A DNA stretch of 43,314 bases from Oceanotoga teriensis (GCF_003148465.1 NZ_QGGI01000020.1:1-43314), one strand, 5' to 3'. Counted from the first letter of the stretch, positions 1,721-34,363 are shown. The notes: generated by a model from the sequence alone, not told the origin. Made by a program: numbers and translations.

Positions 1721-1742
1721 ATAATATAAAGAGGTGATAAAT

Positions 1743-5013: not shown

Positions 5014-5042
5014 GATAAAAGCCCAATTATTGGGCTTTTATC
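5014..5042. terminator. Bidirectional terminator
   Basis: A 13-bp perfect stem GATAAAAGCCCAA / TTGGGCTTTTATC closes a TTA loop. It serves the small rightward gene and the leftward secreted-protein gene, whose TAA stop (5040-5038) sits in the right arm. Confidence 0.9.
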
Positions 5043-7245: not shown

Positions 7246-7264
7246 AAAAACCTCCAAATAAAAA

Positions 7265-7294
7265 TATTAGAAGACTAATAAAAGCCTTCTAATA
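7265..7294 (-). terminator. Intercistronic hairpin (attenuating terminator)
   Basis: On the minus strand TATTAGAAG / CTTCTAATA forms a 9-bp perfect stem with a 12-base loop, followed by a short run TTTTTATTT. It lies in the 53-base gap between the two secreted genes. It may lower expression of the downstream glycosidase-like gene relative to the first gene or protect the upstream mRNA. Confidence 0.6.
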
Positions 7295-7298
7295 AATA

Positions 7299-8642
7299 CT
7301 ATTTAATTGTAACTGATTGAATCTCTAAAGATCTATTATTCAAAAATTCAAAAATATTTTTTACATTTTTTGTGCCATAAACAGAATAAATTCTATCAAA
7401 TTCAACAATATCTCCCGCCTTAAATTTCATCATCAAATTATCTCCAATTTCCTGATCTGAAGTACCATTAAATACTCCTTTTGTAGGTTCATACAAATTA
7501 AATTCATCTGGCATCCATCTAAAAAATCCATCTCTAAACTCTCTACTCTCATACATCCATGAACTACCCATTATAAACTTCTTAAAATCAGAATATACAA
7601 CAGGTTTAGTTGGTAAAATTTCTACTGCAGCAATATTAAGCTTATCAGAATAATTCGCCCTAAAATTTTCCATACTACCAAAAAGATAAGATGCTCCCCA
7701 CCATAAAGGACTATTAGCTTCACCAGCATTAAAAGCTATATAAGGAATATCATTAAAAAACTTTATAGAATCTCTTTGTTTCCAATAATCTACAGATCTT
7801 ATACCTAATTGCTCTGCCCAAACAAGTCTTCTAAAAACAGGCAAAATATGCAAAGAAGAATCATCCATAGATAATAATGGATTAGTAGCCATAACTTGAA
7901 GCTTCATCAAATCAACATAATTTGTAAAATAAAACTTATTATTTACAACAACATCTCCTGTATAAAATACAGTAGAAACTATCTCTTGATTAAAACCAGG
8001 AAGATCATCATAAGTCAAAACAGATTTAACACTAATTGACACAGCTCCTGGATCACTAACTTTCAAACTTTTAACAGAAAATCCATTAGAAGTATTTTCC
8101 ACATGCTTTCCTAATTTCCCATCGATATAATAAGAACTTCCTGACCACCCAGCAACTCTTGCAGTACCTATTTCATTAAAAATATTACCTTCATTTCCAT
8201 CAAAAGAAATAAAACTTATTAACCCTTTATTAGAAATTTTAAAAGAAAAATTTTTATTATTGACAATATAAGAATCATCATCATTAAGAACTTCAAAATT
8301 ACTATCAAAATGCAAAACATCCATATCAAAATCATCACTAACGACTAACCTTGCTTCACCCTTAAAACAAAAACTAATCAAATCATCAGAAGAAATTCTA
8401 TCATTAGAATCCATATCAGTTATCTGATAAACAATATCCTTATCATTAACATCTTTAATTCTCAAAGAATACCAATTAGCATCAAAATCTTCACCAAATT
8501 TATCTAAAAGTTCAGAAAAAGTAAAAACTTGTGGAATATCTAAACCAGTTTTCTCATCACTTCTAAACACTAATTCTCTGAACTCAGAAAAAGAAACAAT
8601 AGAAATCAAACAAACAATAAATATTAATAAAAATTTTCTCAT
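7299..8642 (-). CDS. Secreted protein of unknown family, polysaccharide-utilisation context
   Basis: 447 residues with a signal peptide (MRKFLLIFIVCLISIVSFS). The rest is predicted beta-rich, with Trp/aromatic-rich segments such as GWSGSSYY, SPLWWGASYLFG, SSWMYESREFRDGFFRWM and QEIGDNLMMKF. It resembles beta-sandwich polysaccharide-active or -binding proteins (possibly DUF4861-like), but I do not recognise the family. The start at MRKFLL follows AGAGGAGGG; an in-frame upstream start would run through the operator. It is the first gene of a two-gene secreted unit divergent from the lacI-ABC-GH130 operon and has the same operator, so it likely processes the same glycan. Confidence 0.65.
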   Translation of the reverse strand: MRKFLLIFIVCLISIVSFSEFRELVFRSDEKTGLDIPQVFTFSELLDKFGEDFDANWYSLRIKDVNDKDIVYQITDMDSNDRISSDDLISFCFKGEARLVVSDDFDMDVLHFDSNFEVLNDDDSYIVNNKNFSFKISNKGLISFISFDGNEGNIFNEIGTARVAGWSGSSYYIDGKLGKHVENTSNGFSVKSLKVSDPGAVSISVKSVLTYDDLPGFNQEIVSTVFYTGDVVVNNKFYFTNYVDLMKLQVMATNPLLSMDDSSLHILPVFRRLVWAEQLGIRSVDYWKQRDSIKFFNDIPYIAFNAGEANSPLWWGASYLFGSMENFRANYSDKLNIAAVEILPTKPVVYSDFKKFIMGSSWMYESREFRDGFFRWMPDEFNLYEPTKGVFNGTSDQEIGDNLMMKFKAGDIVEFDRIYSVYGTKNVKNIFEFLNNRSLEIQSVTIK

Positions 8643-8658
8643 AAAAACCCTCCTCTTT

Positions 8659-8674
8659 TTGTAAACGCTTACAA
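8659..8674. promoter_or_regulatory. LacI-family operator 1 (leftward promoter)
   Basis: TTGTAAACGCTTACAA, a near-perfect palindrome with the central CG typical of LacI-family operators. It is identical to the site at 8928-8943. It lies between the predicted -10 of the secreted genes and their ribosome binding site. Confidence 0.85.
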
Positions 8675-8693
8675 CAAATATCATGATAAACTT

Positions 8694-15787: not shown

Positions 15788-16741
15788 TTACTTATCATCT
15801 CTTTTAATTTCTTTTCCCTCAGCATCATAATTTACTTTTGTAAGTTCAGATTTGACAAAATTATCATTTAATAATTTAACAAACAAATCTTGTGATTTTT
15901 TAGTACTCAATAAAATCTTATCCTCTTCATCATAATCAAATTCTCCTTTCAAAAAATCATTATTCTTTGAAAACTTTATTATTTCTCTTTTCTTGACCTC
16001 AAAAACTGGAGAATCCACATTTATTTTTGATAATTTTCTTGAAAAAGTTAAATCTCCCTCTTCAATTCTCTTCCTGAGTGGAGCATCTTCAACCAATATA
16101 TCAAGTTTTTTTATTTTATCCATAGACTTCTTGGCATTCTCTTTAATAATAGCATCAAAACCGAAATAAGATTCAAGAATTTTTAAATTAATAAAATATA
16201 ACTCATCATCAACCATAAAAAAATCAACCTTAGTATCAACATTAAAAAGGTTCTTATCTATCTTTCTAAATCTATTTGAATCGGGAAAAATAATAAACCT
16301 TTTATCATTTCCATAAACATTAATTGCATAACTTTTTCTGACAGAATAAAAATTTTCTTTCTCACTACCAAACTTAAAAATATAAAATCCAACATCTTTA
16401 AAATCATCATCTTTAATATCAAAAAAATCTTCTTCATAAAGACTTATATTCCTAATCAAATCCAAAAAAGAAGCAAGTTTATCTGTATAATCAAGATCAT
16501 ACTTAAAAATAGCATTTTTAGTATTTTCAAAAGAACTTATATTAACAATATTCTGACTATCCTTAAAAATTTTCAAACTATCCTCACAAACATTATGAGC
16601 CAAAGATTGTAAACTGTTATCTATCAAATCAATTCTTTTAAGAACTTTACTACTTTTCAAAAAAAAGTATAAATTAACAGAATTAATACCTTTAGGTTTT
16701 TTCAATATTCTTTTAATCTTTTCTAATCCAGATTCGATCAT
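15788..16741 (-). CDS. kwaB: Kiwa anti-phage protein KwaB (DUF4868)
   Basis: 317 residues, soluble, matching the length of KwaB (about 315) and its DUF4868 pattern: an N-terminal segment with SVNLYFFLKSSK, a central DVGFYIFKFGSEKENFYSVR and KRFIIFPDSNRFRKID, then VDFFMVDDELYFINLKILE, and a charged C-terminus. KwaB is the cytosolic DNA-binding effector of the two-gene Kiwa system. Start and stop of the preceding gene overlap as ATGA, with GGGGGGA upstream, so both proteins are made together. The identification rests on both domain pattern and the adjacent four-helix KwaA-like partner. No classical nuclease motif is visible. Confidence 0.82.
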   Translation of the reverse strand: MIESGLEKIKRILKKPKGINSVNLYFFLKSSKVLKRIDLIDNSLQSLAHNVCEDSLKIFKDSQNIVNISSFENTKNAIFKYDLDYTDKLASFLDLIRNISLYEEDFFDIKDDDFKDVGFYIFKFGSEKENFYSVRKSYAINVYGNDKRFIIFPDSNRFRKIDKNLFNVDTKVDFFMVDDELYFINLKILESYFGFDAIIKENAKKSMDKIKKLDILVEDAPLRKRIEEGDLTFSRKLSKINVDSPVFEVKKREIIKFSKNNDFLKGEFDYDEEDKILLSTKKSQDLFVKLLNDNFVKSELTKVNYDAEGKEIKRDDK

Positions 16742-17307
16742 CTATTTTTCCCCCCATATATAATATCATCACTCAAAAGTTGATAAACTATATGGTCATC
16801 TACATGAAGATCATCTTTAGATATCAATATCTTTTTTTGAACTTTATTCTTACTCTCATATTCAACCCTATAAATCTTAAAACCATAAATAGCCAAAATG
16901 GGATTAGAATAATAAAGATTAGTTCTAATATAAATAACACCTATAAAAAATAATAAAATAAAAGTTATTAAATAATTTCTTTTATCTCCAAAATTTACAA
17001 ATATCAATGGCATAATATAAGTATAAAAAAATGACATATACTCAAAATTAATACTCTCAACTTTTTTTAACTCCACTGAAAGATTTCTCTTAACTAACAT
17101 CTTTTTAAAAAGATAAAAAGTAAAAAGCCCAATAAGCATGAAAATAATCAAAATAATTCCATATAAATTAAAAATTGAATCAAGACTTTTTATATTCATA
17201 TCTTTATCAAAGCAATTCAAAACAAAAAATATACCGAATAAAATATCAAGAGATAAAAAATAAAACCCTATTTTATAAAAATAATTAATCTTTTTTGAAA
17301 ATTTCAT
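16738..17307 (-). CDS. kwaA: Kiwa anti-phage membrane protein KwaA
   Basis: 189 residues with four predicted membrane helices (about 11-31, 48-67, 90-107, 111-128) and a cytosolic tail beginning LYYSNPILAIYGFKIYRVEY (131-150), the conserved NPxLAxxG(F/Y) segment of KwaA proteins. KwaA is the membrane sensor of phage attachment or injection and partners KwaB. The ATG at 17307 is fixed by TTTGGAGGG eight bases upstream; an in-frame TTG sits within that site. A four-base overlap links it to kwaB. Sequence conservation outside the tail motif is low, so confidence rests on topology, tail motif and neighbour. Confidence 0.78.
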   Translation of the reverse strand: MKFSKKINYFYKIGFYFLSLDILFGIFFVLNCFDKDMNIKSLDSIFNLYGIILIIFMLIGLFTFYLFKKMLVKRNLSVELKKVESINFEYMSFFYTYIMPLIFVNFGDKRNYLITFILLFFIGVIYIRTNLYYSNPILAIYGFKIYRVEYESKNKVQKKILISKDDLHVDDHIVYQLLSDDIIYGGKNR

Positions 17308-17334
17308 CTTATATCCCTCCAAAGATAAAAAACA

Positions 17335-17725: not shown

Positions 17726-17747
17726 AAAAAAGCAGGGCAATGCCTGC
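17726..17747 (-). terminator. Intrinsic terminator of the opine/ATP-grasp unit
   Basis: On the minus strand GCAGG-CATTGC-CCTGC forms a 5-bp GC-rich stem followed by TTTTTTG. It lies 16 bases after the ATP-grasp stop codon and separates that unit from the DUF1801-Kiwa operon. Confidence 0.75.
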
Positions 17748-17762
17748 AATTATCTTTGAACA

Positions 17763-18749
17763 TTATTGATTATTTAAAATCTTCAAAAAATCTTCAACTC
17801 TTAAATTAAAACTACCATTTTGATTGAAATATCCTTCTTCAAAAATCCATTCACCATCTTTGAAAAGATATCTTCCGGGTTTTCCATCTATATACATTTG
17901 TGAATTATCATAAGAGCCAAATATAGCTTGAAGTTCATTAACATAAAATTTATTATCTAAAGTTTCAAAAATATCTATATCCATAGATCTAAAACCATTC
18001 TCATCTGTAATTCTTTTTACAAGATTTAATAACTCTTCTGGTGGTTTAACCCAACCCACTTTACCACTACCAGAATGAAACTTACCTTTCGCTAATTTTT
18101 GATGGCCAAAAAAAGACTCTCCTATTCTTATAATTCTCCACTCCCATTTAACATCGAGCTTTTCTTGAAATATTACAAAGTTATACTGTTTATCATCCAT
18201 AATTGGATAACTTAATTTAAATCTCGTTTTATACCATTTAGTATATCCAAAATTAAAAAACTTCCATTTTGTAAATATTTTATTAATAATTTTTTTCGCT
18301 TGATTTTTATTCATAAATTTAATTCCTAAAGCTCCACTACCTATATTAGGTTTAAAAACTAAAGGATATTTATCATATTTTTCTACAAAATTTAAAGCCT
18401 CTTCTTTATCATAAAAAATCCAAGTTTTTGGATGAGGAATATCATTCAATTTTAAAAAATAAGCCATGTTTTTTTTATTTTCATATATAAACAAAGAATA
18501 ATAATCCGGATAAATAGGTTTTTTTAAAACATGAGATATAAAATAAAGTTTTTCATCATACATCCTTTTCCAAACATCTTTAGCAAAAGATGGTCTAACT
18601 AAAAAACCATCACAATTACTTTTTAAAATATTATCAATCCAATCATTTGAAATTATATCTATAATTTCATAATCAACTTTTAAATCTTCACAAGCTTTAA
18701 TATAATTACTCTCATAACCAGAAAATTCCTTTAAAATCCCTAATTTCAA
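17763..18749 (-). CDS. ATP-grasp (RimK-like) ligase
   Basis: 328 residues. After an N-terminal pre-ATP-grasp domain (CDGFLVRPSFAKDVW) come YPLVFKPNIGSGALGIKFM (the lysine and glycine-rich ATP loop), EWRIIRIGESFFGHQKLAKG and DIDIFETLDNKFYVNELQ (metal-binding D and N-E). Such enzymes join a carboxylate to an amine through an acyl phosphate. The start is TTG at 18749, fixed by GGGGGAGG nine bases upstream, a site located inside the last codons of the preceding gene. Six bases separate it from the opine dehydrogenase-like gene, so the two work together. Substrates unknown; amide linkage of an N-carboxyalkyl amino acid is inferred. Confidence 0.8.
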   Translation of the reverse strand: MKLGILKEFSGYESNYIKACEDLKVDYEIIDIISNDWIDNILKSNCDGFLVRPSFAKDVWKRMYDEKLYFISHVLKKPIYPDYYSLFIYENKKNMAYFLKLNDIPHPKTWIFYDKEEALNFVEKYDKYPLVFKPNIGSGALGIKFMNKNQAKKIINKIFTKWKFFNFGYTKWYKTRFKLSYPIMDDKQYNFVIFQEKLDVKWEWRIIRIGESFFGHQKLAKGKFHSGSGKVGWVKPPEELLNLVKRITDENGFRSMDIDIFETLDNKFYVNELQAIFGSYDNSQMYIDGKPGRYLFKDGEWIFEEGYFNQNGSFNLRVEDFLKILNNQ

Positions 18750-18755
18750 ATTCTT

Positions 18756-19697
18756 TTACCTCCCCCTCTTTAAAACATTATAAAAATCCTCTAAGTTTCT
18801 ACTATAAACATGTTTACTAAAAGATCTGCTAATTTCAAAACTTGAATTTCTATAAAATAAAGAAGGAGCATTGTTAACTATATAAAAATAAATTCTATCT
18901 TCCTTATACAACGGATTATCAATACTCGTATATCTACTACCCTCAATTGCATTTCCTGCATCTGCTGCTGCATCTATTATTAAAGCACCTTTTTTTACCC
19001 TTTCAAGATCTTTTTTATTAATTATATGTTTATCAGAATTATCAACTTCTATACCATTTATTATAATATCATAATCATTTATTTCAGAAATAAATTCATT
19101 CATAGTTTTCCTATAAAATAATCTAACATCTGCACCAAGTTTAGAAATAAAACTATAAGCTCCTTGAGAAACATTTCCAGGAGATAATACAGCAACTTTA
19201 GTATTAACATCTGGCATTTTTCCATAAGCCATTAAGGCTTGAAATACAGAAGCATAACCAGCTATAACACTATTTCTTCTTATAAAATTTTTAGGTATAA
19301 AGTCTATACTATATTTATTATTATCATAATAAATAGTTGGATAAATATTATCTAAATCCACTATAACAAGTTTTTTTACATTAGCTTGATTTTCCATAAA
19401 ACCTCTTCCAGATCCCGTTGGATGCGTCCAACCAATTATCATCTGACCCTCTCTTATAAAATCATAATCCTGAGGCTGCATTAATTTCAAATTAAAAATA
19501 GCTTCACAATTATCAAAAATCTCTTTTCTGCTCAATATTTTACAGCCTTTTTTTTCATACTCAACATCAGAAATATCAAGATTATTTCCAAAGCCCCTTT
19601 CAATGAAAATATTCTCTTTAAAATTTTCTATATGTTCTGGTAAAAGTGCAACTCTTCTTTCATTGGGATAATTTGGAATTATAAAACCTAAATTCAT
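18756..19697 (-). CDS. N5-(carboxyethyl)ornithine synthase / alanine dehydrogenase-family protein
   Basis: 313 residues, a length equal to lactococcal N5-(carboxyethyl)ornithine synthase and shorter than alanine dehydrogenase (about 370). The N-terminal half begins GFIIPNYPNERRVALLPEHI, the substrate-domain pattern of the alanine dehydrogenase/PNT family. Next come GQMIIGWTHPTGSGRGF and a Rossmann region KVAVLSPGNVSQGAYSFIS, and finally INGIEVDNSDKHIINKKDL. CEOS reductively condenses pyruvate with the side-chain amine of ornithine or lysine using NADPH. The ATG at 19697 has GAGGAGAGG upstream. It forms a two-gene unit with the ATP-grasp ligase. Exact substrate is uncertain. Confidence 0.72.
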   Translation of the reverse strand: MNLGFIIPNYPNERRVALLPEHIENFKENIFIERGFGNNLDISDVEYEKKGCKILSRKEIFDNCEAIFNLKLMQPQDYDFIREGQMIIGWTHPTGSGRGFMENQANVKKLVIVDLDNIYPTIYYDNNKYSIDFIPKNFIRRNSVIAGYASVFQALMAYGKMPDVNTKVAVLSPGNVSQGAYSFISKLGADVRLFYRKTMNEFISEINDYDIIINGIEVDNSDKHIINKKDLERVKKGALIIDAAADAGNAIEGSRYTSIDNPLYKEDRIYFYIVNNAPSLFYRNSSFEISRSFSKHVYSRNLEDFYNVLKRGR

Positions 19698-19723
19698 AAT
19701 CAACCTCTCCTCTTTATAATATA

Positions 19724-19739
19724 GTTATAATATTATAAC
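19724..19739. promoter_or_regulatory. 16-bp perfect palindrome upstream of opine dehydrogenase-like gene
   Basis: GTTATAATATTATAAC is fully self-complementary and lies 26 bases before the ATG, overlapping the likely -10 sequences. It resembles a Fur/PerR-type box half-site arrangement (TTATAAT-ATTATAA without the usual central base), but in such A/T-rich DNA it may be no more than overlapping promoter elements. Confidence 0.35.
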
Positions 19740-19755
19740 TTAAAAAACATAAATA

Positions 19756-19776
19756 AAAAAGCTTTAAAGCCTTTTT
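19756..19776 (-). terminator. Weak terminator after locus A flippase
   Basis: On the minus strand AAAAA-G-GC-TTTAAA-GC-TTTTTT forms a stem with one bulged G, followed by T-rich sequence. It overlaps the flippase stop codon and probably ends polysaccharide locus A, possibly with read-through into the opine dehydrogenase-like gene. Confidence 0.45.
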
Positions 19777-21229
19777 ATTTTTTAAAATATTTTCTAATTA
19801 TATTCTTTTCATCTTTTGTTGAAAATAAAAAATAAACTAAAAATAATATTCCATAATTAACAAATCCCAAAATTATTAAATATAATAAATTTGTAGAAAA
19901 ATTTCTATCTATATAAAAATTAAAAAAGAAAATTATTAAAGAAATTGGAAAAAGTTTCAAATAACTCTTATTATACGGATTTATTTTAAGTATAAAATAA
20001 ACTTCTAAATATTTTAAAATATTAACTATAATAAGAGAAACTCCTGCTCCAATAGCTGATCCTATTATTCCGTATTTTGGAATCAATAAAATATTCAAAA
20101 ATATATTTAAAACAGCTATAACTATACCATTTATTAATGAATACTTTTGATTTCCCGACATAGAGAGCAAAGATTCATTTGGTCCAACAGAAATAGATAC
20201 AAATTGAGCCAAGGATAAAATTATAAGAGTTTTAAAACCAATAACATATTCTTCTCCAAAAATATTTAAAACACTTTTTGAATAAACAATCATCATAATA
20301 ACAAGAGGCAAACTCAAAAATATAATTATTTTTGTAATATCAGAATAAAGTTTTTCCAGTTCTAATCTCTTATTATTATTAAATAAATCAGCTACATTCG
20401 AAACAAAAATAGAATTAAAAGAAACATAAATAAATATCAAAACTCCAGATAAAATCTGTGAAATAGAGTAAATTCCAGCACTTTCAGAATTTAGAAAAAC
20501 TCCTATAATTATAGTATTAACATATCCCATCATAAACTCTGTAAATCTTACAAACATGAGATAAGAAGAATATTTAAACAATTCTTTAGAATCTTTTTTA
20601 TTCGATTTAAAAATAAACTTTAAATTTGGAATTAATTTAAAAACTCTAAAAGAACTGAATAAAAAGACAAATAAAATTGCCAAAAACATAGCTGCAAAAA
20701 GACTATTTAAAGGATTTAAAAAATATATCAAAACAAAAAATATCACGAGTTTAACAATTCTTAAAAGAATTTCTTCATAAAAAAAGAAAACCGAAGGTTT
20801 CTTTACACCTCTTAATAATCCGCCATTCACTTGAAAAATAGTCATAAAAGGTATTGCAAATGCTATTATAATAATATATTCTAAATTCTCAAATTCAAAT
20901 ACATTCGATATTGGAACTCTTAAAATATAAAACAAAAAACTTGCTATTATACTTATGAAAACACTTATTTTAATGGATTCAGAGTAAAAAGAACTAACTT
21001 TATTAAAATCATCTTTACCATACCACTCTCCCACAAATCTTATAATACCACTATTCAAACCCATGAGACTAAAAATAGTAACAAAAGATATAATAGTATT
21101 TGCAATAGAGTAAACGCCAAAATCTGAAGGTCCTAAAATTCTTGCAAATATAAAAGAATTCAAAAAACCTAAAAAATATCCGAGTATTTTAACTAAAAAA
21201 GTTCTACCTGCTTCTCTAAAAATAGACAT
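19775..21229 (-). CDS. Polysaccharide flippase, Wzx type (locus A)
   Basis: 484 residues with 12-14 hydrophobic segments. The start REAGRTFLVKILGYFLGFLN and ILGPSDFGVYSIANTI are typical of the oligosaccharide flippase (MATE/MOP superfamily) family. It moves the undecaprenyl-linked repeat unit across the membrane. AAAGGTGAA lies about seven bases before the ATG. It is the last gene of locus A, 14 bases after the TupA-like gene. Confidence 0.9.
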   Translation of the reverse strand: MSIFREAGRTFLVKILGYFLGFLNSFIFARILGPSDFGVYSIANTIISFVTIFSLMGLNSGIIRFVGEWYGKDDFNKVSSFYSESIKISVFISIIASFLFYILRVPISNVFEFENLEYIIIIAFAIPFMTIFQVNGGLLRGVKKPSVFFFYEEILLRIVKLVIFFVLIYFLNPLNSLFAAMFLAILFVFLFSSFRVFKLIPNLKFIFKSNKKDSKELFKYSSYLMFVRFTEFMMGYVNTIIIGVFLNSESAGIYSISQILSGVLIFIYVSFNSIFVSNVADLFNNNKRLELEKLYSDITKIIIFLSLPLVIMMIVYSKSVLNIFGEEYVIGFKTLIILSLAQFVSISVGPNESLLSMSGNQKYSLINGIVIAVLNIFLNILLIPKYGIIGSAIGAGVSLIIVNILKYLEVYFILKINPYNKSYLKLFPISLIIFFFNFYIDRNFSTNLLYLIILGFVNYGILFLVYFLFSTKDEKNIIRKYFKK

Positions 21230-21243
21230 TATTTTTCACCTTT

Positions 21244-22140
21244 TTAATCTAAATTTATCCAACTTCCAATTAAATAATCATGTTCTTCTTTATCAAATGG
21301 GGCATAACCAGAACCATCATAAAAAGTTATTTCGCCAAAATAAAGCTTATCATTAACAACAAACCAATCAATTCTAACATGTGCTTTATTTTGAGCTAAT
21401 TTTTCAGAAAGCTCTATCATCCTATCGAATTCTTTTGGTTTTTCTTTTATACTATATGATGAATCTTCATCATATCCTTGAGTTATATCAGTCTTATTCC
21501 AATCAATATCATAAATATCCTGTTTATGGTTGGCAAACCTGTCCATATGAACTTCTATAAGCTTTGCTTTTCCATTAAAACATAACACCTTATAATCATC
21601 AGGAGTCTGATCATTATCAGAAATAAACTGCTCACAAACAATTCTTGGTTTAACATTTTTATATGGCCATTCTCTATGAACCCAATAATAGTTTCTTTTC
21701 AACCATTTTTTTGAATCTTTCTTCAATTGTTCATAATCTATTTTACTTTTATCTTTACAAATAAACACACTACCAGAATCATGAGTATACTTTAAAACAA
21801 ATTTATTAGGTAATTTTGAAAAATCTATATCTTCAAAACTATCCCAAACACCCAATAAAGGAATTAAATATTCAGATCCTATAGTTTCAGCTATATATTC
21901 TCTAACCCCATATTTATCAACTAATTTAGTATATTCAGGTTTTCTATCATATAATTTTAGCCACTGTAATTTTTCATTATAGGTTTGAACATTATCAAAA
22001 TTTAGTTTTTTATTCATCATCAACTTAAATTTTAATTTTAAAAATAATTTATCTGGCAACAATCTAAAAATTTTAAAATAAGAGAGTATATATATAATAC
22101 AAACTTTTGGCTTCTTAAAAAATTTTATAATCTTATTCAA
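21244..22140 (-). CDS. TupA-like ATP-grasp protein
   Basis: 298 residues with the TupA-like ATP-grasp pattern: YNEKLQWLKLYDRKPEYTKLVDKY (as YNEKLQWLKLYDR then LVDKYGVREYI), PNKFVLKYTHDSGSVFICKD (nucleotide loop), VCEQFISD, PDDYKVLCFNGKAKLIEV and KLYFGEITFYDGSGYAPF (metal ligands). In Bacillus the founding member TupA is needed to attach polyglutamate to a polyglucuronate cell-wall polymer. The frame is open further upstream, but TTG at 22140 with AGGA nine bases before it is the best start and avoids overlap with the preceding gene. Neighbours making UDP-GlcA/GalA agree with an amide-forming role on uronic acids. Confidence 0.82.
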   Translation of the reverse strand: MNKIIKFFKKPKVCIIYILSYFKIFRLLPDKLFLKLKFKLMMNKKLNFDNVQTYNEKLQWLKLYDRKPEYTKLVDKYGVREYIAETIGSEYLIPLLGVWDSFEDIDFSKLPNKFVLKYTHDSGSVFICKDKSKIDYEQLKKDSKKWLKRNYYWVHREWPYKNVKPRIVCEQFISDNDQTPDDYKVLCFNGKAKLIEVHMDRFANHKQDIYDIDWNKTDITQGYDEDSSYSIKEKPKEFDRMIELSEKLAQNKAHVRIDWFVVNDKLYFGEITFYDGSGYAPFDKEEHDYLIGSWINLD

Positions 22141-22172
22141 AATAAATCTTCCTACCTTTAAAATATAATATT

Positions 22173-23252
22173 TTATTCCATAACTTTTAAAACATAATCT
22201 TCCCAATCTTTAAATATTTTATCGGGAGTAAAATCCTTAGATTTTATTTTCAAATTATTAGAAAATTTATCTAATAATTTATCATTTTCAAGTAATTTCG
22301 TTAAATATACTACAAGCTCTTCAACATCTCCAACTTTAAATAAAAAACCATCTTCCCCATGATTAATAAGATACTTTGGACCACCACAAGGACAATCAGT
22401 TGAAATAACAGGTATATTCAAAACCATAGCTTCCATTAAAGCATTTGGCATACCCTCATAATCAGAAGAAAGAACAAAAATTTTAGCATTTTTTATCTCT
22501 TCCTCAATATTTTCTTTAACTCCCATAAAAAAAACTCTATCTTCTAAATTCAAACTCTTAACAAGATTCATAAGCTCTTCTTTTTTATCTCCATCACCAT
22601 ACAAAAGTAATTTTTCATCTGGAAATTTATCCACTATCTTTGAAAAAGCTTTGATCAAAATATTATGATTTTTCTGTTCTTGAAGTCTACCAACTGTAAC
22701 TATATTACTTCTTTTCTCATCATTTTTGACATTATAAAATTTTTCATCAACTTGATTCAAAATTATTTTTGACTTTTTTTGAATCTTTTCAGAAAACCAA
22801 CTCTTAGCATCTTCAGTTTGAAAAACACATCCATCTGCTTTAGGATACAAAATCTTGGCAAAAAATCTATAAACAAAATTTGGATATTCTCTATTTGGAT
22901 CATTTCTAACAGAAATTATATTTTTTACCTTCAAAAATCTTGTAGCTAATATAGACCTAAAGTTTGGTTCTGCTAAAAATGAAATAACTAAATCCGGATT
23001 TTCTAATTTGATAATCTTTCTCAATCTAAAAAGTCTTCTCATATTTTTAGCAAAAAAATTTCCACCTTCATCGCCATCTTCAAGATTCAATCTTTTAATA
23101 CTTTTCTTTAAATCATATTCTTTAACAGTTTCAAAAGAAGTTGTAAATACAACATCATAATTTTCCGAAAATCTATTGGCAAGATTAGTTAAAACTCTCT
23201 CAGCACCACCACGATTTATAGTATTCATATAAAATAATATTTTTTTTCTCAT
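22173..23252 (-). CDS. Glycosyltransferase family 4 protein (locus A)
   Basis: 359 residues. N-terminus KKILFYMNTINRGGAERVLTN (the N-R-G-G-A-E-R acceptor-side signature), NIVTVGRLQEQKNHNILI at the start of the donor domain and SSDYEGMPNALMEAMVLNIP with the E-x7-E motif. The motif set is that of HexNAc- or galactosyl-type transferases of capsule loci. The ATG at 23252 has GAGGT six bases upstream; the ATG two codons earlier would overlap the previous stop as ATGA but lacks spacing from that site. Adds one sugar of the repeat unit. Confidence 0.88.
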   Translation of the reverse strand: MRKKILFYMNTINRGGAERVLTNLANRFSENYDVVFTTSFETVKEYDLKKSIKRLNLEDGDEGGNFFAKNMRRLFRLRKIIKLENPDLVISFLAEPNFRSILATRFLKVKNIISVRNDPNREYPNFVYRFFAKILYPKADGCVFQTEDAKSWFSEKIQKKSKIILNQVDEKFYNVKNDEKRSNIVTVGRLQEQKNHNILIKAFSKIVDKFPDEKLLLYGDGDKKEELMNLVKSLNLEDRVFFMGVKENIEEEIKNAKIFVLSSDYEGMPNALMEAMVLNIPVISTDCPCGGPKYLINHGEDGFLFKVGDVEELVVYLTKLLENDKLLDKFSNNLKIKSKDFTPDKIFKDWEDYVLKVME

Positions 23253-23254
23253 AC

Positions 23255-24373
23255 TCATACCTCAAAATAAAGATTTTTATAAAAATCATATAATTCTTTA
23301 ACAGAATTTTTGATATCAAAACCACTATTTTCAACATATTTTTTCATATTTTTTCTTTCATGATTCCAAAAAGATAGAATCTTATCCGCCCAATATTCAG
23401 AACCCTTCATCAAAGACTCTGAAATGATATTAGGTGTTATAAATACCTCTTTTGTAACATTATCAGAAACTATACAAGGCAAACCAGATGCTTGAGCCTC
23501 TATAACAGTAACTGGAAGTCCTTCCCATAAAGAAGGAAAAACAAAAACATCCATTGCTTGCATATAATCATATACATTAGAAACAACACCAATAAAAAAA
23601 ATTTTATTCAAAATATTCAAATTCTCAGCTTTCTTTAAAATATTATTCTTTAACTTTCCATCCCCCAATAAAAGCAAGACTGAATTCGATTTTTTCTTCA
23701 AAACTTCCAAAAAAACATCTATTAAAAAATCATGGTTTTTAGGCTCTGTAAAACTTCCAACATGACCTATCACAAATTTATCTTTCAAATCCAAAGAATT
23801 CCTAAAAAAATTTCTCTTATTTTCATCAAATATATATTTATCAGTTTCAATGGCATTTTTTATCACCTTATAATTATTTCTCTTTATTACATTCTCTCCA
23901 AAAAGCCATTTACCAGAATCATCAGAACAAGAAAATAGATAATCGGCTATATTCCTAATAGGATATTGCATAATATCCTTGACTTTTTTCTCTATAAAAT
24001 TTCCTCTTGATGATGTACTATGACTGTGAGATATTGTCATTAATCCATATTTTTTAGCAATCTTCAAATAAATAGAAGCCGTACTTCTCATATGGCCATG
24101 AACAATCCTATATTCTGAATGATTAGAAAAAAAATCATTCCATGCTTTTTTATATATGAAATGATTCTTTCCATTATATCTTGGGACAGAAAAAATTTTT
24201 CCACCAAGATCTCTTATTTCATTATTAAAATCACAATCTTCATCAGTATGAATAACAAAATCAAACTGAATCTTCGATCTATCCATATTTCTATATAAAT
24301 TCATAACCATGCTTTCGGCTCCACCTCTATTTAAAGCCCCTAAAACATGTAAAACTCTTATAATATCAGACAT
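23255..24373 (-). CDS. Glycosyltransferase family 4 protein, EpsF-like (locus A)
   Basis: 372 residues with IRVLHVLGALNRGGAESMVM at the N-terminus, HGHMRSTASIYLKIAKKYG and HSHSTSS in the acceptor domain, FVIGHVGSFTEPKNHDFLI, and PSLWEGLPVTVIEAQASGLP carrying the E-x7-E motif. This pattern is close to EpsF-type transferases of exopolysaccharide loci. The stop overlaps the next gene's possible first ATG. The ribosome binding site AGGTTAGGTTAA is weak. Confidence 0.88.
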   Translation of the reverse strand: MSDIIRVLHVLGALNRGGAESMVMNLYRNMDRSKIQFDFVIHTDEDCDFNNEIRDLGGKIFSVPRYNGKNHFIYKKAWNDFFSNHSEYRIVHGHMRSTASIYLKIAKKYGLMTISHSHSTSSRGNFIEKKVKDIMQYPIRNIADYLFSCSDDSGKWLFGENVIKRNNYKVIKNAIETDKYIFDENKRNFFRNSLDLKDKFVIGHVGSFTEPKNHDFLIDVFLEVLKKKSNSVLLLLGDGKLKNNILKKAENLNILNKIFFIGVVSNVYDYMQAMDVFVFPSLWEGLPVTVIEAQASGLPCIVSDNVTKEVFITPNIISESLMKGSEYWADKILSFWNHERKNMKKYVENSGFDIKNSVKELYDFYKNLYFEV

Positions 24374-24396: not shown

Positions 24397-25563
24397 TCAA
24401 TCCCTTGAATATAAATCTCTTGTATATATCTTATTCTCAACATCTTTCAAATCATCATTCATTCTATTTGTAAGTATTATATCAGATATACTTTTAAACT
24501 CTTCTATATCTCTTATAACCCTCGAATTAAAAAATTTATCTTCTTTCAATGTAGGTTCATAAACCACTACTTCAATACCTTTTGCTTTTATTCTTTTCAT
24601 AACTCCCTGAATAGAAGATGCTCTAAAATTATCAGAATCTGTTTTCATAGTAAGTCTGTATACGCCAACTATTTTTGGCTTTTTCTTTATTATTGCATCT
24701 GCTATATGATCTTTTCTTGTACTATTTGAATCTACTATAGCTCTTATCAAATTATTTGGTACATCTTCATAATTTGCAAGCAGTTGTTTTGTATCTTTTG
24801 GTAAACAATATCCTCCATATCCAAATGATGGATTATTATAGTAATTACCTATTCTTGGATCTAAACAAACTCCTTCTATTATTTGCTTTGTATTCAATCC
24901 CCTTATTTCAGCGTATGTATCAAGTTCATTAAAAAATGAAACTCTCATTGCTAGAAATGTATTTGCAAATAATTTTATCGCTTCTGCTTCTGTTGAATCT
25001 GTAAACAATACTTCTATATCCTCTTTTATCGCACCTTCAACTAATAAATCAGCAAATTTTTTCGCTCTTTCACTTCTTTCTCCTACAACTATTCTCGATG
25101 GATAAAGATTATCATACAATGCTTTTCCTTCTCTTAAAAATTCTGGAGAAAATATTATATTTTCTGTATCATATTTTTCTTTTATCTGTTTTGTATATCC
25201 CACTGGTATAGTTGATTTTATTATCATTACCGCATTTGGATTTATTTTTATTACATTTTCTATTACATTCTCTACTGTTGATGTATCAAAATAATTCTTC
25301 TCTGGATCATAATTCGTTGGTGTTGCTATTATTATATATTCTGCATCTTCAAAAGCTTCTTTTTCATCTAATGTTGCTTTTAATTTTAATTCTTTACTTT
25401 TTAAGTAGTCTTCTATTTCTTTATCTGCTATTGGTGATTTTTTATTATTCAACATATTTACTTTTTCTTCTATTATATCTAAAGCTTTTACTTCATTCTT
25501 TTGTGATAACAATACTGCCAATGATAACCCAACATACCCAGTTCCCGCTACAGCTATTTTCAT
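24397..25563 (-). CDS. ugd: UDP-glucose 6-dehydrogenase family protein
   Basis: 388 residues, the length of the short capsule-type enzymes. [15 protein letters not shown] (7-21) binds [12 protein letters not shown] (116-124) and FSPEFLREG (138-146) line the active site, and C253 in [14 protein letters not shown] is the catalytic cysteine. It oxidises UDP-glucose twice to UDP-glucuronate. It precedes nothing but glycosyltransferases downstream and follows the epimerase that would use its product. Substrate could be another UDP-hexose, but the epimerase next door supports UDP-glucuronate. Confidence 0.92.
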
Positions 25564-25580: not shown

Positions 25581-26591
25581 TTACTTATTATAATATTCTT
25601 TATACCATTTAGCAAAATTAGCCAAACCTTCGTCAATTGTTGTTGAAGGTTTAAATCCTATTTCATTTTCAAGATCTGTTGTATCCGCATAAGTTCTAAA
25701 AACATCTCCTGGTTGCATATCCATATATATTTTTTCAGCCTGTTTTCCAATCTTATCTTCAAGAGTGTTTATAAAATCCATGAGTTTAACTGGTTTATTA
25801 TTCCCTATATTATATATTTTATACGGTGCAAAACTTGAACTCAAATCATCTTTAGTTTCATCCCAATTTTTATTTTTTTGAGGTATTTTATTCAATAATT
25901 TATATATTCCTTCAACTATATCATCTATATATGTAAAATCTCTTTCCATATTTCCATGATTAAAAACCTTTATAGGCTTTCCACTCATTATATTGTTTGT
26001 AAACGAAAAATATGCCATATCTGGTCTTCCCCATGGACCATATACAGTAAAAAATCTCAAACCAGTAGTAGGTATATTATACAAATGACTGTATGTATGA
26101 GCCATTAATTCATTACTCTTTTTAGTTGCTGCATATAAACTAACTGGATGATCTACATTATGATTAGTAGAAAATGGAGCAACTTTATTCCCGCCATATA
26201 CAGAACTTGAAGATGCATAAATAAGATGTTTTACAGGATTATTTCTACATGCCTCAAGTATATTGACAAAACCTATTAAATTTGAGTCCACATATGCATA
26301 TGGATTCTCTATTGAATACCTAACTCCTGCCTGTGCTGCAAGATTAATTACATAATCAAAATTATTTTTTTCAAATAATTCATCTATATTTTTTTTATCT
26401 TTTAAATCCATCTTAATAAATTCATAATTCTCTTGTTTTTCAAGAATTTTAACTCTATCTATTTTTAAATTTACATCATAATAATCATTTAAATTATCAA
26501 TTCCTATTACATTATATCCATTTTTTAATAATAAATTACTAAGATGAAATCCTATAAATCCAGCTCCTCCAGTTACTAATATTTTATTCAA
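25581..26591 (-). CDS. UDP-glucuronate 4-epimerase-like SDR
   Basis: 336 residues of the extended SDR family: GGAGFIG (8-14), SSSSVYGG (127-134) with the catalytic Ser/Thr region, and Y153-x3-K157 in [12 protein letters not shown]. Further down [13 protein letters not shown] and the [15 protein letters not shown] segment are typical of UDP-GlcA 4-epimerases (LspL/CapI type). It makes UDP-galacturonate from the Ugd product. The start codon is TTG at 26591, overlapping the previous gene by 8 bases, with GGGAG/AAGGA sequences upstream; no ATG is near. Confidence in the family is high, in the exact substrate moderate. Confidence 0.88.
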
Positions 26592-27885
26592 TATCCTTCA
26601 TCTCCCGATCATTTATTTTACTTCTACCAAAACCTAAAGTTGCTATAAAAATAATTAAAAACCAAATTTGAATTTTAAATCTTGTACCAGTTCCAAGATT
26701 CTGTGGCGATACTAAAGAATAAACAGAACCCCAAATAAAAATATATATTAAAACTGTTTTAATTAAGGCCTTATAATTGAAACTTTTGTTTTTATCTTTT
26801 GATATATTTCTAATACCTTTTATAAACAAAATAAAAACAATCCAATTTATTAAATCTGTTAAAAGTATAAATGGATTTCCCAACATTATAAGTGGTCTAA
26901 ATATAGTAGTAAACCATAAATAAGGGAAATAAATTATAAAATCTTTAAGTCCCGTAAGTTCAACTCCAGAAGTACTTCCACCACGATTCCAATCACTTGA
27001 TAAACTAACTATAATCTCATTTATAGCTGAAATACTTGTAACACCTACAATTTTCATTCCAACAAAAATAATTCCCAATAAAGCAGGAAATATTATAAAA
27101 TAATACCTTCTCTTTATTTTTCTATTAAAAATTAAAGTCAAAAATAAAGAAAGACCTAAAATAGGAATCATCCAAAGTCTAACAAATAAAAAATAACTAA
27201 AAAATATCAAAGAAATAAATAAATACCTCAATTTATCTCTTTTTAAATATAAAATAACAAAAGAAACATGCATAACCGTACTACTAAGAGCTAAAGGATC
27301 TTTAGAATATAAAGAAGTAAAAATAATACTCATTGGCTCTATTAAAGTAAACAATAAAAAAAAGTACTGCTGTTTCTTATTAAATTCTTCATTAACAACT
27401 TTAAAGAAAAAATAAATAGATAAAAAAGTTATTCCGCTCAAAAATATTTCAATATTTTTGAATCCAAATCCAAATAATCTTTGAAAAAATAAAAATATAT
27501 AAGAAATATTATTTGTTCCACGCTTAATAGACAATTCAAAAATTTGATTTCCTTCAAAATAATCTCTTGAAAGACCATAAAATTGCTTTGCATCCCATCC
27601 TTGATAATAGTTTTCAACATATGGAAAAATAAAAACAATAAAAATTATTCTCAGTAAAAAACCTAATAAGAGAATATTTTTTATTGTCTTTTTTTCTTTT
27701 AAATTTAAAATCACATAAACAAAAAAAATAGTCATAAAAGTAGAAAAAACTATATCTAAAACAGAACTAACTTTTAAATTAATCATATCATGCAACTCTA
27801 AAATATAATCCATAGAAAAACTCAATAGAAAAAAAGTTGCGATAAATATAAAAGCACCGAGCATAAAGTAATTAATTTTTTTCAT
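26584..27885 (-). CDS. Polysaccharide polymerase-like membrane protein (Wzy candidate, locus A)
   Basis: 433 residues with about eleven hydrophobic segments and a large loop in the middle (SSDWNRGGSTSGVELTG) before the last helices. No family signature is obvious, as is usual for Wzy proteins. Position in a locus with an initiating transferase and flippase but no other polymerase candidate makes it the Wzy. The ATG at 27885 is placed six bases after GGGTGAA, five bases after the preceding stop. It could instead be a DUF-type membrane glycosyltransferase; its C-terminal half resembles EpsG-like proteins only loosely. Confidence 0.6.
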   Translation of the reverse strand: MKKINYFMLGAFIFIATFFLLSFSMDYILELHDMINLKVSSVLDIVFSTFMTIFFVYVILNLKEKKTIKNILLLGFLLRIIFIVFIFPYVENYYQGWDAKQFYGLSRDYFEGNQIFELSIKRGTNNISYIFLFFQRLFGFGFKNIEIFLSGITFLSIYFFFKVVNEEFNKKQQYFFLLFTLIEPMSIIFTSLYSKDPLALSSTVMHVSFVILYLKRDKLRYLFISLIFFSYFLFVRLWMIPILGLSLFLTLIFNRKIKRRYYFIIFPALLGIIFVGMKIVGVTSISAINEIIVSLSSDWNRGGSTSGVELTGLKDFIIYFPYLWFTTIFRPLIMLGNPFILLTDLINWIVFILFIKGIRNISKDKNKSFNYKALIKTVLIYIFIWGSVYSLVSPQNLGTGTRFKIQIWFLIIFIATLGFGRSKINDREMKDIE

Positions 27886-27890
27886 ATAAT

Positions 27891-29012
27891 TCACCCATTC
27901 AAATAAACAGAAATTATATTTTCTATAGTTTTATTTTCATCAAACTCATCCTTTGCAATAAGTTTTGCATTATCTGAAAACTCTTTCCATTTATTACTAT
28001 CATTCAAAAGTTCATAAATTCTTTTAGCAAAATTCTCTGAATCACCTAATTTAACAAGATAACCATTTCTATTATTTTTTACAACTTCATTTGTACCAAT
28101 AACATCTGTAGCAACTATTGGAACTCCCAATGCACTTGATTCCATAAGAGCTCTTGGTTTTCCTTCTTTAAAAGAAGTCAAAACAGATAAATCACTATCA
28201 TATATTTCAGATATAATATCTTCTCTATCTAAAGTTCCAATAAAATTTATAACATCATTTATATCCATACTATTTGCTTTTTTCTTTAAATCTAATTCAA
28301 GAACACCTTCACCATAAAGATTCAATTCAAAATTAGTAAATGAATATTTTTCTTTTAAAATTTTAATACTATCAAAAAGCATAGCATGATTTTTTACACC
28401 TTCCCATCTTGCTGTACATGCTATTCTTTTTTTATCAAAATTAAATTTTTTATCTTTTTTTATATAATCTTTAAATTCTTCAAAAGGAATACCATTGCCT
28501 ATATATCTTAAAACACTATTTTTTTCATATCCATTATCTTTACAATAATTATACTCATCCATATTTTGAAATAAAAGTATGTCACAATATTTGCTGAGAT
28601 ATTTTTCAACAAATTCATATATTTTTCTTTTAATACCTTTATACTGAGTAAAATGAAATCCATGAACTTGATGAATTATAAGAGGAACATCAGCTTTTTT
28701 TGCCGCTATTCTTCCGGTTGCTCCTGGTTTAGAAGCATGAGTATGAACAATATCTGGTTTATACTCTTTAAAAACTTTAACTAATTCTTTTATCTCATAC
28801 TTAATATCAGATAATTTCATAGAATTAGATAAATTAACATTAATAACCTTAATTCCCATTTTTTTCATCTTATCAGACCAAATTCCATCAGGACATATTA
28901 AATAATTTTTAAATCCCTTTCTTTTATCTACCTTTTCAACTCTCGTTCTTAATAATCTATATGCTCCATAATCTGTATTAAAAAGATCTATAACCATCAA
29001 ATCATTATCCAT
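27891..29012 (-). CDS. Glycosyltransferase family 4 protein (locus A)
   Basis: 373 residues with the Wbp/PglA-like pattern: KPDIVHTHASKPGATGRIAA, IIHQVHGFHFTQYKG in the acceptor domain, KRIACTARWEGVKNHAMLF and LTSFKEGKPRALMESSALGV in the donor domain. The HTHASKPGxxGRxAA signature is shared by transferases that add the second sugar onto the lipid-linked first sugar. It lies four bases after the initiating transferase, as expected for that role. AAGGT is the ribosome binding site. Confidence 0.88.
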   Translation of the reverse strand: MDNDLMVIDLFNTDYGAYRLLRTRVEKVDKRKGFKNYLICPDGIWSDKMKKMGIKVINVNLSNSMKLSDIKYEIKELVKVFKEYKPDIVHTHASKPGATGRIAAKKADVPLIIHQVHGFHFTQYKGIKRKIYEFVEKYLSKYCDILLFQNMDEYNYCKDNGYEKNSVLRYIGNGIPFEEFKDYIKKDKKFNFDKKRIACTARWEGVKNHAMLFDSIKILKEKYSFTNFELNLYGEGVLELDLKKKANSMDINDVINFIGTLDREDIISEIYDSDLSVLTSFKEGKPRALMESSALGVPIVATDVIGTNEVVKNNRNGYLVKLGDSENFAKRIYELLNDSNKWKEFSDNAKLIAKDEFDENKTIENIISVYLNG

Positions 29013-29016
29013 TAAA

Positions 29017-30297
29017 TTACCTTGCCCCTCTCATACCAAGCATAGTTTCAACTGTTTTCATCATTATTTGAATATCTAAAAGTAAATTCCTATTCTTCAC
29101 ATAATAAAGATCATATTCAGTTTTTATCTTATAATCCTCTAATGTTGTAGTATGCTTATAATTTATCTGTGCCCATCCAGTTATTCCAGGCTTATAATTA
29201 AGTCTATACATATAATAAGGAATATTATCAACCATCTTATAATGAAATTCTGGCATCTCAGGCCTTGAACCCACTATAGACATATCTCCTTTTAAAACAT
29301 TTATAAACTGTAAAGACTCATCTAATCTTGTCTTTCTCGAAAATTTACCTATTTTTAAAACTCTTTCTTCTAACCCTTCATTTGGATTATCCTTATTTAT
29401 TGGTACATGTTTTAAAGATCTAAATTTCATCAAAGTAAAAGGTTTACCTCTTTCGCCTATTCTTCTTTGTTTAAATACAACAGGAAATCCATCTTCTAAC
29501 AAAACACCCAAATAAATCAAACCCATAAAAGGAGAAAATATAATAAGCAAAAATACTGAAGTAATTATATCGAGCATTCTCTTACTTGGAGAATTTTCTA
29601 TTTGCTTTTCAAATTCAACTTTATAATAATTTTCAAACTTACATAAAACATCTAAAGGTATCTTCTTTAAAGTTTTTTCAGCAATATGTGGAAGATATTC
29701 AACGGGAACACCTTGAAGTTTATAATTATCTATCTCAAACTTTATCTCTTTTTCGAGTTTTGGATCTGTAACCAATATCTTATTAAAAGTTCTCTCATCC
29801 TCTAAAGAAAGTGAATAATGGTCATCCATGAGCATTGTGAACCTTTGTGGAGAAGGATTTATATACTCCACAAATTTCATCTTGCCTTTAGTAGATTCAG
29901 AAATCTGCGAAAGAACCTCGCCTATCTCTTTTTCCCTACCTATTACAAGGTATTTATTTACAGGGGCATGTTTCCTATAAAGATAATACTCTATCTTATG
30001 AAGAAAAGGAATCAATACGAGTGAAAAAAGAAGATTGAAAAGATATATTTTGGCAAGATTATAATCAAAAACAATTGCAAAAATTGTTATTCCAACAAAT
30101 GAAATAACATTACCTGCAAATACTCTTATAAAAGTTTCATTCATACTTTCCATATTTTCTATATCATATACTCTAAAAGCATATATCCCTATAAATACTA
30201 AAAAGCTTACAATAACAGATTCAACAATATTTAATCCCATAGCAATATTAAACCCAAAAACAAATATAGAATCTATAAATTTAACAATTCTCTTCAT
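29017..30297 (-). CDS. Initiating sugar-1-phosphate transferase (polyprenyl-P, WbaP/WcaJ type), locus A
   Basis: 426 residues. N-terminal membrane helices (about 9-110), a central CoA-binding-like Rossmann domain (YLVIGREKEIGEVLSQI), and a C-terminal catalytic domain with the re-entrant helix (KRMLDIITSVFLLIIFSPFM), FKQRRIGERGKPFTLMKFRS, TRLDESLQFINVLKGDMS and the YKPGITGWAQINY motif. It transfers a sugar phosphate from a nucleotide sugar to undecaprenyl phosphate, starting the repeat unit. The usual VGPRP is VGSRP here. AAGGTAGGA precedes the ATG; it is the first gene of locus A, behind a good promoter. Clear paralogue of the transferase at 41297-42592. Confidence 0.92.
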   Translation of the reverse strand: MKRIVKFIDSIFVFGFNIAMGLNIVESVIVSFLVFIGIYAFRVYDIENMESMNETFIRVFAGNVISFVGITIFAIVFDYNLAKIYLFNLLFSLVLIPFLHKIEYYLYRKHAPVNKYLVIGREKEIGEVLSQISESTKGKMKFVEYINPSPQRFTMLMDDHYSLSLEDERTFNKILVTDPKLEKEIKFEIDNYKLQGVPVEYLPHIAEKTLKKIPLDVLCKFENYYKVEFEKQIENSPSKRMLDIITSVFLLIIFSPFMGLIYLGVLLEDGFPVVFKQRRIGERGKPFTLMKFRSLKHVPINKDNPNEGLEERVLKIGKFSRKTRLDESLQFINVLKGDMSIVGSRPEMPEFHYKMVDNIPYYMYRLNYKPGITGWAQINYKHTTTLEDYKIKTEYDLYYVKNRNLLLDIQIMMKTVETMLGMRGAR

Positions 30298-32468: not shown

Positions 32469-33542
32469 TTAAGATAGTCCGAAATTTCTAAATTTTTCAT
32501 ATTCTTTTAAAGTACTTTGATATTTATCCCATTCTCCTATATCAAACCAAGATTTTTCACTAACTGGAAAATAAGATACTTTTTCCTTGTTTTTTATTAA
32601 TATTTCAATTAAATCTGTCATATTAAAAAATTTGTCCTCGGGTATATATTCAATAGCTTTTTTATTAATAATATACATGCCAGAATTAATCAAATAATTC
32701 CTATTAGGTTTTTCATTTATTTTTTTTACATTACCTTTATCATCATTTTCAATAACTCCATAAGGTATACTTTCATTTTTTAATACCCCTACTATTGTAA
32801 GAATGTTTTTATTTTCTTTATGATAACTCAACAATTCTATATAATCTTGATTTATTAAAATGTCACAATTAGTTATGAAACAATCTTCTTTAATATTTTT
32901 ATTCATTAATCTTATACTACCTGCTGTTCCCAGAGGCTTATCTTCTTTAATATAATGAATTTTAACATCTTTTATTATTTTTTTTGATAAATAGTATTCT
33001 ATTAATTCATGTTTATAATTAACAGATAAATGAAAATTATATATTCCATACTTAAGAAATTTTTCAAAAATAATTTCTAAAATAGTTTTTTCTCCAATTG
33101 GTATTAATGGTTTAGGAATAACATTAGTAATTGGTTTTAATCTTGTACCTTTTCCTCCAGCCATAATAATTACAGGAATATCAATTTTTTCATTATTTAT
33201 ATTAATTGTATTTCCAAATAATTCTTCCCAATAATATATTTTATATATTTCTCCATTATCTATAACTGGTAAAAATTCCATTCTGTATTTTAACATCATT
33301 TTTTTTATTTTTTCAAAACTATATGATTTTTTCGCAACTTTTATATCTTTTCTAGTAATTATATAAGCCGGACTACTTAAATCTATGTTATTTATTATAG
33401 CTCTTTGTATATCTCCTATGCTAACTAAAGAATAAAATTTATTATTTTTTTCTAAAATTAATAGTTTTCTATTAATTTTATCCATTCTTTTAATTACCTC
33501 TATAATAGTTGAATCATGAGCTATTTTAATAGAAATATCCAT
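32469..33542 (-). CDS. CBS-domain nucleotidyltransferase (PtmE/sugar-1-P guanylyltransferase-like)
   Basis: 357 residues. Two CBS repeats (about 1-115) precede a nucleotidyltransferase domain with PVIIMAGGKGTRLKPIT (123-139), PKPLIPIGEKTI, GTAGSIRLM and NCDILIN (metal-binding D). CBS-linked enzymes of this kind activate GlcN-1-P or related sugar phosphates with GTP in legionaminic acid pathways (PtmE). AAAGGA precedes the ATG at 33542; an earlier ATG three codons upstream sits too close to it. Follows the SDR gene by 14 bases. The sugar and nucleotide cannot be fixed from sequence. Confidence 0.82.
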   Translation of the reverse strand: MDISIKIAHDSTIIEVIKRMDKINRKLLILEKNNKFYSLVSIGDIQRAIINNIDLSSPAYIITRKDIKVAKKSYSFEKIKKMMLKYRMEFLPVIDNGEIYKIYYWEELFGNTININNEKIDIPVIIMAGGKGTRLKPITNVIPKPLIPIGEKTILEIIFEKFLKYGIYNFHLSVNYKHELIEYYLSKKIIKDVKIHYIKEDKPLGTAGSIRLMNKNIKEDCFITNCDILINQDYIELLSYHKENKNILTIVGVLKNESIPYGVIENDDKGNVKKINEKPNRNYLINSGMYIINKKAIEYIPEDKFFNMTDLIEILIKNKEKVSYFPVSEKSWFDIGEWDKYQSTLKEYEKFRNFGLS

Positions 33543-33556
33543 AAAAATCATTCCTT

Positions 33557-34351: not shown

Positions 34352-34363
34352 TATTAAAACCTC

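Follow-up and report, generated by a model that had tools for sequence, protein, structure and literature searches.

An opine dehydrogenase and a LysX/ArgX-like ligase in a bacterial polysaccharide locus: a predicted route to opine-uronamide side groups

Free ornithine and lysine are the substrates of the characterized N5-(carboxyethyl)ornithine synthase (CEOS). Carboxyethylated lysine is also found in bacterial glycans, and the O-polysaccharide of Proteus O13 contains N-ε-(1-carboxyethyl)-N-α-(D-galacturonoyl)-L-lysine. The same residue is present in Providencia rustigianii O14 (PMC10609480), so that the Providencia O-antigen precedent invoked in a preliminary description of the DNA analysed here is borne out for O14. 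The O-polysaccharide of Shewanella fidelis KMM 3582 is reported to contain N-ε-[(S)-1-carboxyethyl]-N-α-(D-galacturonoyl)-L-lysine (Kilcoyne, 2004, via PMC11087588); this strain is the type strain and is identical to ATCC BAA-318 (PMC6722870). The chemistry of carboxyethyl-lysine amides on galacturonic acid has thus been known since at least 2003–2004, and the genes are unassigned in the open literature that we searched. Within that literature (subscription journals, in which most O-antigen genetics appears, were outside its scope) we found no described gene pair or system for opine uronamides and, as the preliminary description had supposed, no described system with the gene set reported below.

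The window is a 43,314-nucleotide stretch of DNA, and domain and profile searches place a polysaccharide island on its minus strand. In the direction of transcription the island includes an initiating sugar-phosphate transferase (29017..30297; PF02397, 191 bits), a GT4 glycosyltransferase (27891..29012), a membrane protein with weak PMT_2 similarity that is possibly a polymerase or a glycosyltransferase (26584..27894), an NAD-dependent epimerase (25581..26591), a UDP-glucose 6-dehydrogenase (UGD; 24397..25563), two further GT4 glycosyltransferases (23255..24373 and 22173..23258), a TupA-like ATP-grasp amidoligase (21244..22206), a Wzx-type flippase of the MOP family (19775..21229; PF13440, 95 bits; PF01943, 80.5 bits), an opine dehydrogenase of the CEOS type (18756..19697, 313 residues) and an ATP-grasp amide ligase (17763..18749, 328 residues). 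UGD, which makes UDP-GlcA, matches PRK15057 with 674.5 bits and TIGR03026 with 346 bits, over the cutoff of the latter. The epimerase is a probable UDP-GlcA 4-epimerase yielding UDP-GalA; its solved matches are headed by PDB entry 5u4q (468 bits), followed by 6zl6/6zla (177 bits), which we take to be the Bacillus cereus UDP-GlcA 4-epimerase, and it has a homologue in the S. fidelis locus described below (475–485 bits).

All of the genes named in the preliminary description (CEOS-like, ATP-grasp, TupA-like, UGD and epimerase) are therefore present on the minus strand, with the dehydrogenase, the ligase and the TupA-like gene each found in a single copy in the 2.79 Mb genome. The ligase has a TTG start, and its ribosome site overlaps the stop codon of the CEOS gene. 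A hairpin with a T-rich stretch lies after the flippase gene and upstream of the CEOS gene (19751..19780, minus strand; −11.1 kcal/mol, z of −2.9), and a GC-rich hairpin with a T-run lies immediately after the ligase stop codon on the same strand (17732..17747; fold z of only −1.1); both are probable terminators. Because of these two elements, the CEOS and ligase genes probably form their own two-gene transcription unit. The TupA-like gene lies in the UGD/epimerase operon, as proposed earlier, but the CEOS/ligase pair is likely to stand outside it.

The reading frame of the dehydrogenase may begin at a TTG (18756–19703) or at an ATG (18756–19697); the ATG is preceded by a good ribosome site, GAGGAGAGG, and yields exactly 313 residues. 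The protein is of the CEOS type by sequence: it is 50–54% identical, over 97–99% of the query, to proteins annotated as N(5)-(carboxyethyl)ornithine synthase in Lactococcus and Vagococcus, and the same range of identity is seen with an unnamed Enterococcus protein and with a relative from the same order as the window organism. It carries the AlaDH/PNT domains PF05222 and PF01262, and residues Arg17, Lys73, His94 and Asp248 are invariant throughout the CEOS alignment; their roles are presumed from the AlaDH/PNT superfamily. A predicted structure built from four sequences, of moderate confidence, matches the folds of alanine dehydrogenase and transhydrogenase. A plain alanine dehydrogenase would have refuted the preliminary description, but this candidate was ruled out on score (60.4 bits against TIGR00518, with a cutoff of 391.85), on length (313–315 residues compared with ∼370) and on identity, the alanine dehydrogenase matches being weak and partial. 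The CEOS-like protein of 313 residues that had been proposed is confirmed; an NADPH-dependent activity on pyruvate and ornithine or lysine is inferred.

The Lactococcus enzyme (ceo) shares the 313-residue length and the active-site residues as well as the full-length identity. Unlike the window gene, the Lactococcus, Vagococcus and Enterococcus copies are plasmid-borne and solitary, with no ligase or polysaccharide genes adjoining them, and are mostly found beside stress genes; one same-order genome also has a solitary copy. A single-sequence CEOS query against genome contigs gave no match, and no CEOS relatives were found in the phages searched. On another contig, a CEOS gene with 61% identity is immediately preceded by an open reading frame that appears asparagine-synthase-like by eye (L041:1054–2520).

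The ligase was modelled from 19 relatives, giving an ATP-grasp fold with a pLDDT of 90.8. The best structural match is to ArgX (PDB entry 3vpb; E = 1.1 × 10⁻¹³), with ArgX and LysX being nearest overall, and the structural alignments with LysX/ArgX show 16–21% identity. Lys133, Asp259, Glu272 and Gln274 are invariant in the family, as required of the nucleotide- and metal-binding residues of an ATP-grasp enzyme. The family differs from the LysX, ArgX and RimK ligases, with which it shares this fold, in having its own conserved motifs (YENK, EWR and NELQ) and in scoring far below the curated cutoffs: 33.4 bits against TIGR02144 (cutoff 275.6; a weak LysX profile match), 29.5 bits against TIGR00768 (cutoff 143.4) and 18.8 bits against the RimK domain PF08443 (cutoff 21). 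It thus resembles the RimK/LysX ligases in its working, yet is not a filed member of any of these families, all of whose cutoffs it misses. The preliminary description had called it a RimK-like ATP-grasp ligase coupled to CEOS; the coupling is supported by the overlapping ribosome site and the ATP-grasp fold by the model, but the likeness to RimK by sequence is weak. LysX and ArgX couple a carboxylate to a free amino acid at its α-amine, and a LysX/ArgX-like fold thus offers the chemistry needed for an N-α uronamide. We predict that the ligase joins the α-amino group of an opine to the carboxyl of a uronic acid; its substrates are inferred from the fold model, the conserved motifs and the opine dehydrogenases that neighbour it in unrelated genomes.

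When GTDB genomes were scanned with a three-sequence ligase alignment, 19 loci emerged; they belong to Bacillota, Bacteroidota, Cloacimonadota, KSB1, Patescibacteria, Campylobacterota and Pseudomonadota. Further sampling added L062–L065 and L074, and the family now stands at 27 loci from at least seven phyla. It is rare, being present in 2/346, 4/348 and 2/395 sampled genomes (the genome at the centre of each sampling is counted), and no relatives were found in the viral contigs and phages searched. In 17 of the 27 loci the cluster includes an opine dehydrogenase, which in 16 is directly adjacent to the ligase and on the same strand. These partners are far apart in sequence: they are CEOS-like in the window, L028, L030, L033 and L063, of a divergent AlaDH/CEOS type in both Escherichia coli loci, L024, L037, L040 and L062, and octopine/nopaline dehydrogenases (PF02317) in L026, L029, L034, L035, L036 and L038, the last group itself splitting into two subgroups that are only ∼15–18% identical. 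Among loci with at least eight genes adjacency was observed in 11 of 12, compared with 1.6 expected from random placement within the locus (P ≃ 10⁻⁹), and the type of dehydrogenase switches ∼12 times across the ligase tree if 'none' is counted as a type. The case for function rests mainly on one ligase family being found, again and again, next to opine dehydrogenases of different kinds. The preliminary description would also have failed had the pair been widespread away from uronate polysaccharide loci; wherever enough sequence is available the pair is seen only in polysaccharide loci, and a UDP-sugar dehydrogenase is also present in ten of the 12 pair loci with at least ∼13 kb of sequence.

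The E. coli plasmids p2017-01-4CC_1 and ES7 resemble the window in carrying the ligase (44% identical), a dehydrogenase, a flippase, an epimerase and UGD in one cluster, together with a WecA-like transferase and EpsG; they differ from it in that the dehydrogenase gene, which overlaps that of the ligase, encodes a divergent AlaDH/CEOS-type protein of ∼371 residues with 24% identity. An E. coli chromosomal relic also has the ligase, the dehydrogenase and a TupA-like fragment amid insertion sequences (L019:9448–19401), in which the ligase and dehydrogenase frames are open and the nearby TupA and flippase genes are broken by insertion sequences.

One of the ligase loci (L034) belongs to S. fidelis ATCC BAA-318, which allows the genes to be set beside a published structure. 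The locus encodes an SLBB export protein, Wzz, an initiating transferase, a dehydrogenase, the ligase, Wzx, a Wzy-type protein, UGD and an epimerase; like the window, it thus holds an opine dehydrogenase, the ligase, UGD and a UDP-GlcA epimerase in a single Wzx-type locus. The ligase family, UGD and the epimerase are shared with the window, but the dehydrogenase is of the octopine/CENDH type and not CEOS. It is homologous to the solved N-(1-D-carboxyethyl)-L-norvaline dehydrogenase (PDB entry 1bg6; E = 2.7 × 10⁻³¹) and is the only match to the octopine dehydrogenase profile in the S. fidelis genome. The solved family member places a D-carboxyethyl group on the α-amine, whereas the S. fidelis group is reported to be (S) and on the ε-amine. 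We regard S. fidelis as a case of genotype–structure agreement and not as proof. Through this type strain the gene set is connected with a galacturonoyl-carboxyethyl-lysine structure in the literature, which supports the earlier suggestion of an opine-type amino acid on uronic acid carboxyls. The S. fidelis and P. rustigianii O14 polysaccharides are of the same class as the product predicted for the window, the polymer of which is undetermined.

We consider it quite probable that the window dehydrogenase makes carboxyethyl-lysine or carboxyethyl-ornithine and that the ligase amidates this opine onto GalA or GlcA before export. The CEOS-like enzyme would join pyruvate reductively to lysine or ornithine at the side-chain amine to form N-(1-carboxyethyl)-lysine or -ornithine, while UGD and the epimerase would supply D-GlcA or D-GalA. 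The ligase would then activate the C6 carboxyl of the uronic acid and form an amide with the α-amino group of the opine, in the cytoplasm, on a nucleotide sugar or a lipid-linked repeat, before export by the Wzx flippase; the end product would be a surface polysaccharide bearing zwitterionic opine-uronamide side groups. The gene identities, their coupling, the fold and the recurrence with different opine dehydrogenases are observed, as is the fact that a strain with a matching published structure carries the set. Counted against this reading are the ten ligase loci that lack a dehydrogenase, the mostly solitary CEOS relatives, the mismatch of stereochemistry and amine in S. fidelis and the apparent transcription of the window pair apart from the UGD operon. 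The solitary plasmid copies beside stress genes, together with the probable terminators around the CEOS/ligase unit, would suit a free-standing metabolic CEOS (maintaining a free opine pool as an osmolyte or nitrogen store) that is merely a chance neighbour of an unrelated polysaccharide ligase; we hold this to be highly improbable given that the adjacency is repeated in many phyla with several dehydrogenase families and is found again in S. fidelis, a strain with a matching reported polysaccharide.

The order of the two steps, like the substrates and the sugar acceptor, is inferred without biochemistry, and the same product would result if the ligase first attached an ordinary amino acid such as lysine or ornithine and the dehydrogenase then carboxyethylated its side-chain amine. 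Ten of the 27 ligase loci have no recognizable opine dehydrogenase in the available sequence. Two of these are on short contigs (L025 and L039), and the genome of L039 has a 61% identical CEOS at the edge of another contig; the others are L027, L031, L032, L064, L065, L074 and the window ligase's two closest relatives, L022 (61%) and L023 (56%). Flippases, glycosyltransferases, EpsG, CapA (L027), other ATP-grasp proteins (L032) and a deacetylase and an asparagine synthase (L074) were seen in such loci, and no substitute amino-acid enzyme was found by the ligase in them. The ligase itself does not require an opine dehydrogenase partner, and because of these ten loci it may also attach unmodified amino acids. 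The reverse order is favoured by the other eight dehydrogenase-free loci and by the occurrence in bacterial glycans of uronamides of plain lysine and ornithine (PMC10609480), but the solitary plasmid CEOS genes imply that free amino acids are the substrate. The characterized enzyme likewise uses free ornithine and lysine, and we judge the reverse order to be unlikely, if still a possibility to be kept in mind. The TupA-like protein is the basis of a further rival reading: it matches PF14305 with 220.9 bits (cutoff 25), its closest known counterparts being the teichuronopeptide ligase TupA and TupA-like ATP-grasps, and it might amidate the uronic acid or provide the polymer with a further amino acid or peptide, leaving the LysX-like ligase to act elsewhere. 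Its position within the UGD/epimerase operon and the fragment in the E. coli relic, which also holds the ligase and dehydrogenase, favour this, but when the remaining ligase/dehydrogenase loci, among them that of S. fidelis, were examined for relatives of the window TupA, only that fragment was found. This leaves a TupA-based route distinctly unlikely, and the role of the protein unresolved. On the loci examined, TupA-like ATP-grasps were rejected as a conserved partner of the pair; of the three genes whose co-occurrence in other genomes was to be checked, the dehydrogenase and ligase recur and the TupA-like ligase does not. Its assignment to the same system was not upheld, and there is no evidence for decoration with a short peptide. 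An Asn_synthase-family protein is encoded near the ligase in L074 (5647–7518); any relation to amide decoration is unknown.

Returning to amidation of a preformed opine, we lean towards a modular 'opine uronamide' decoration system in at least seven bacterial phyla, in which one LysX-like ligase family works with at least three interchangeable kinds of opine dehydrogenase in polysaccharide loci; the window would be its CEOS-type version, possibly in Thermotogota. The 16S sequence of the window's genome (L068:41–1573) looks Thermotogota-like, and the group sizes are in keeping with Petrotogaceae. To our knowledge, opine-uronamide glycans are undescribed in Thermotogota, and a surface location in the window organism is inferred. 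Chemically, the product class is already known; the open literature that we searched appears to contain no description of the gene assignment or of the interchangeable dehydrogenases. These dehydrogenases, together with the ligase family and the S. fidelis type strain, allow the assignment to be tested directly. With it, zwitterionic opine-decorated surface glycans would have a sequence marker across many phyla, and CEOS-type enzymes would gain a role beyond free opines.

Other genes in the window were noted. Two long open reading frames at 5038–8684 (739 and 461 residues) have no Pfam or NCBIfam match. Towards the opposite end of the window, an AAA_21 ATPase is followed by an RloB-like protein (1734–3618), and the two are probably a defence pair. 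At 32469–35335 there are genes for a LegB-type GDP-sugar 4,6-dehydratase (TIGR04180, 488.7 bits, over cutoff) and a CBS/nucleotidyltransferase protein, suggesting part of a legionaminic acid-type pathway in an adjacent cluster. The polysaccharide island also contains, downstream of the CEOS and ligase genes, a complete Kiwa anti-phage pair (15788–17322), with both KwaA (16738–17322) and KwaB (15788–16741) over their NCBIfam cutoffs.
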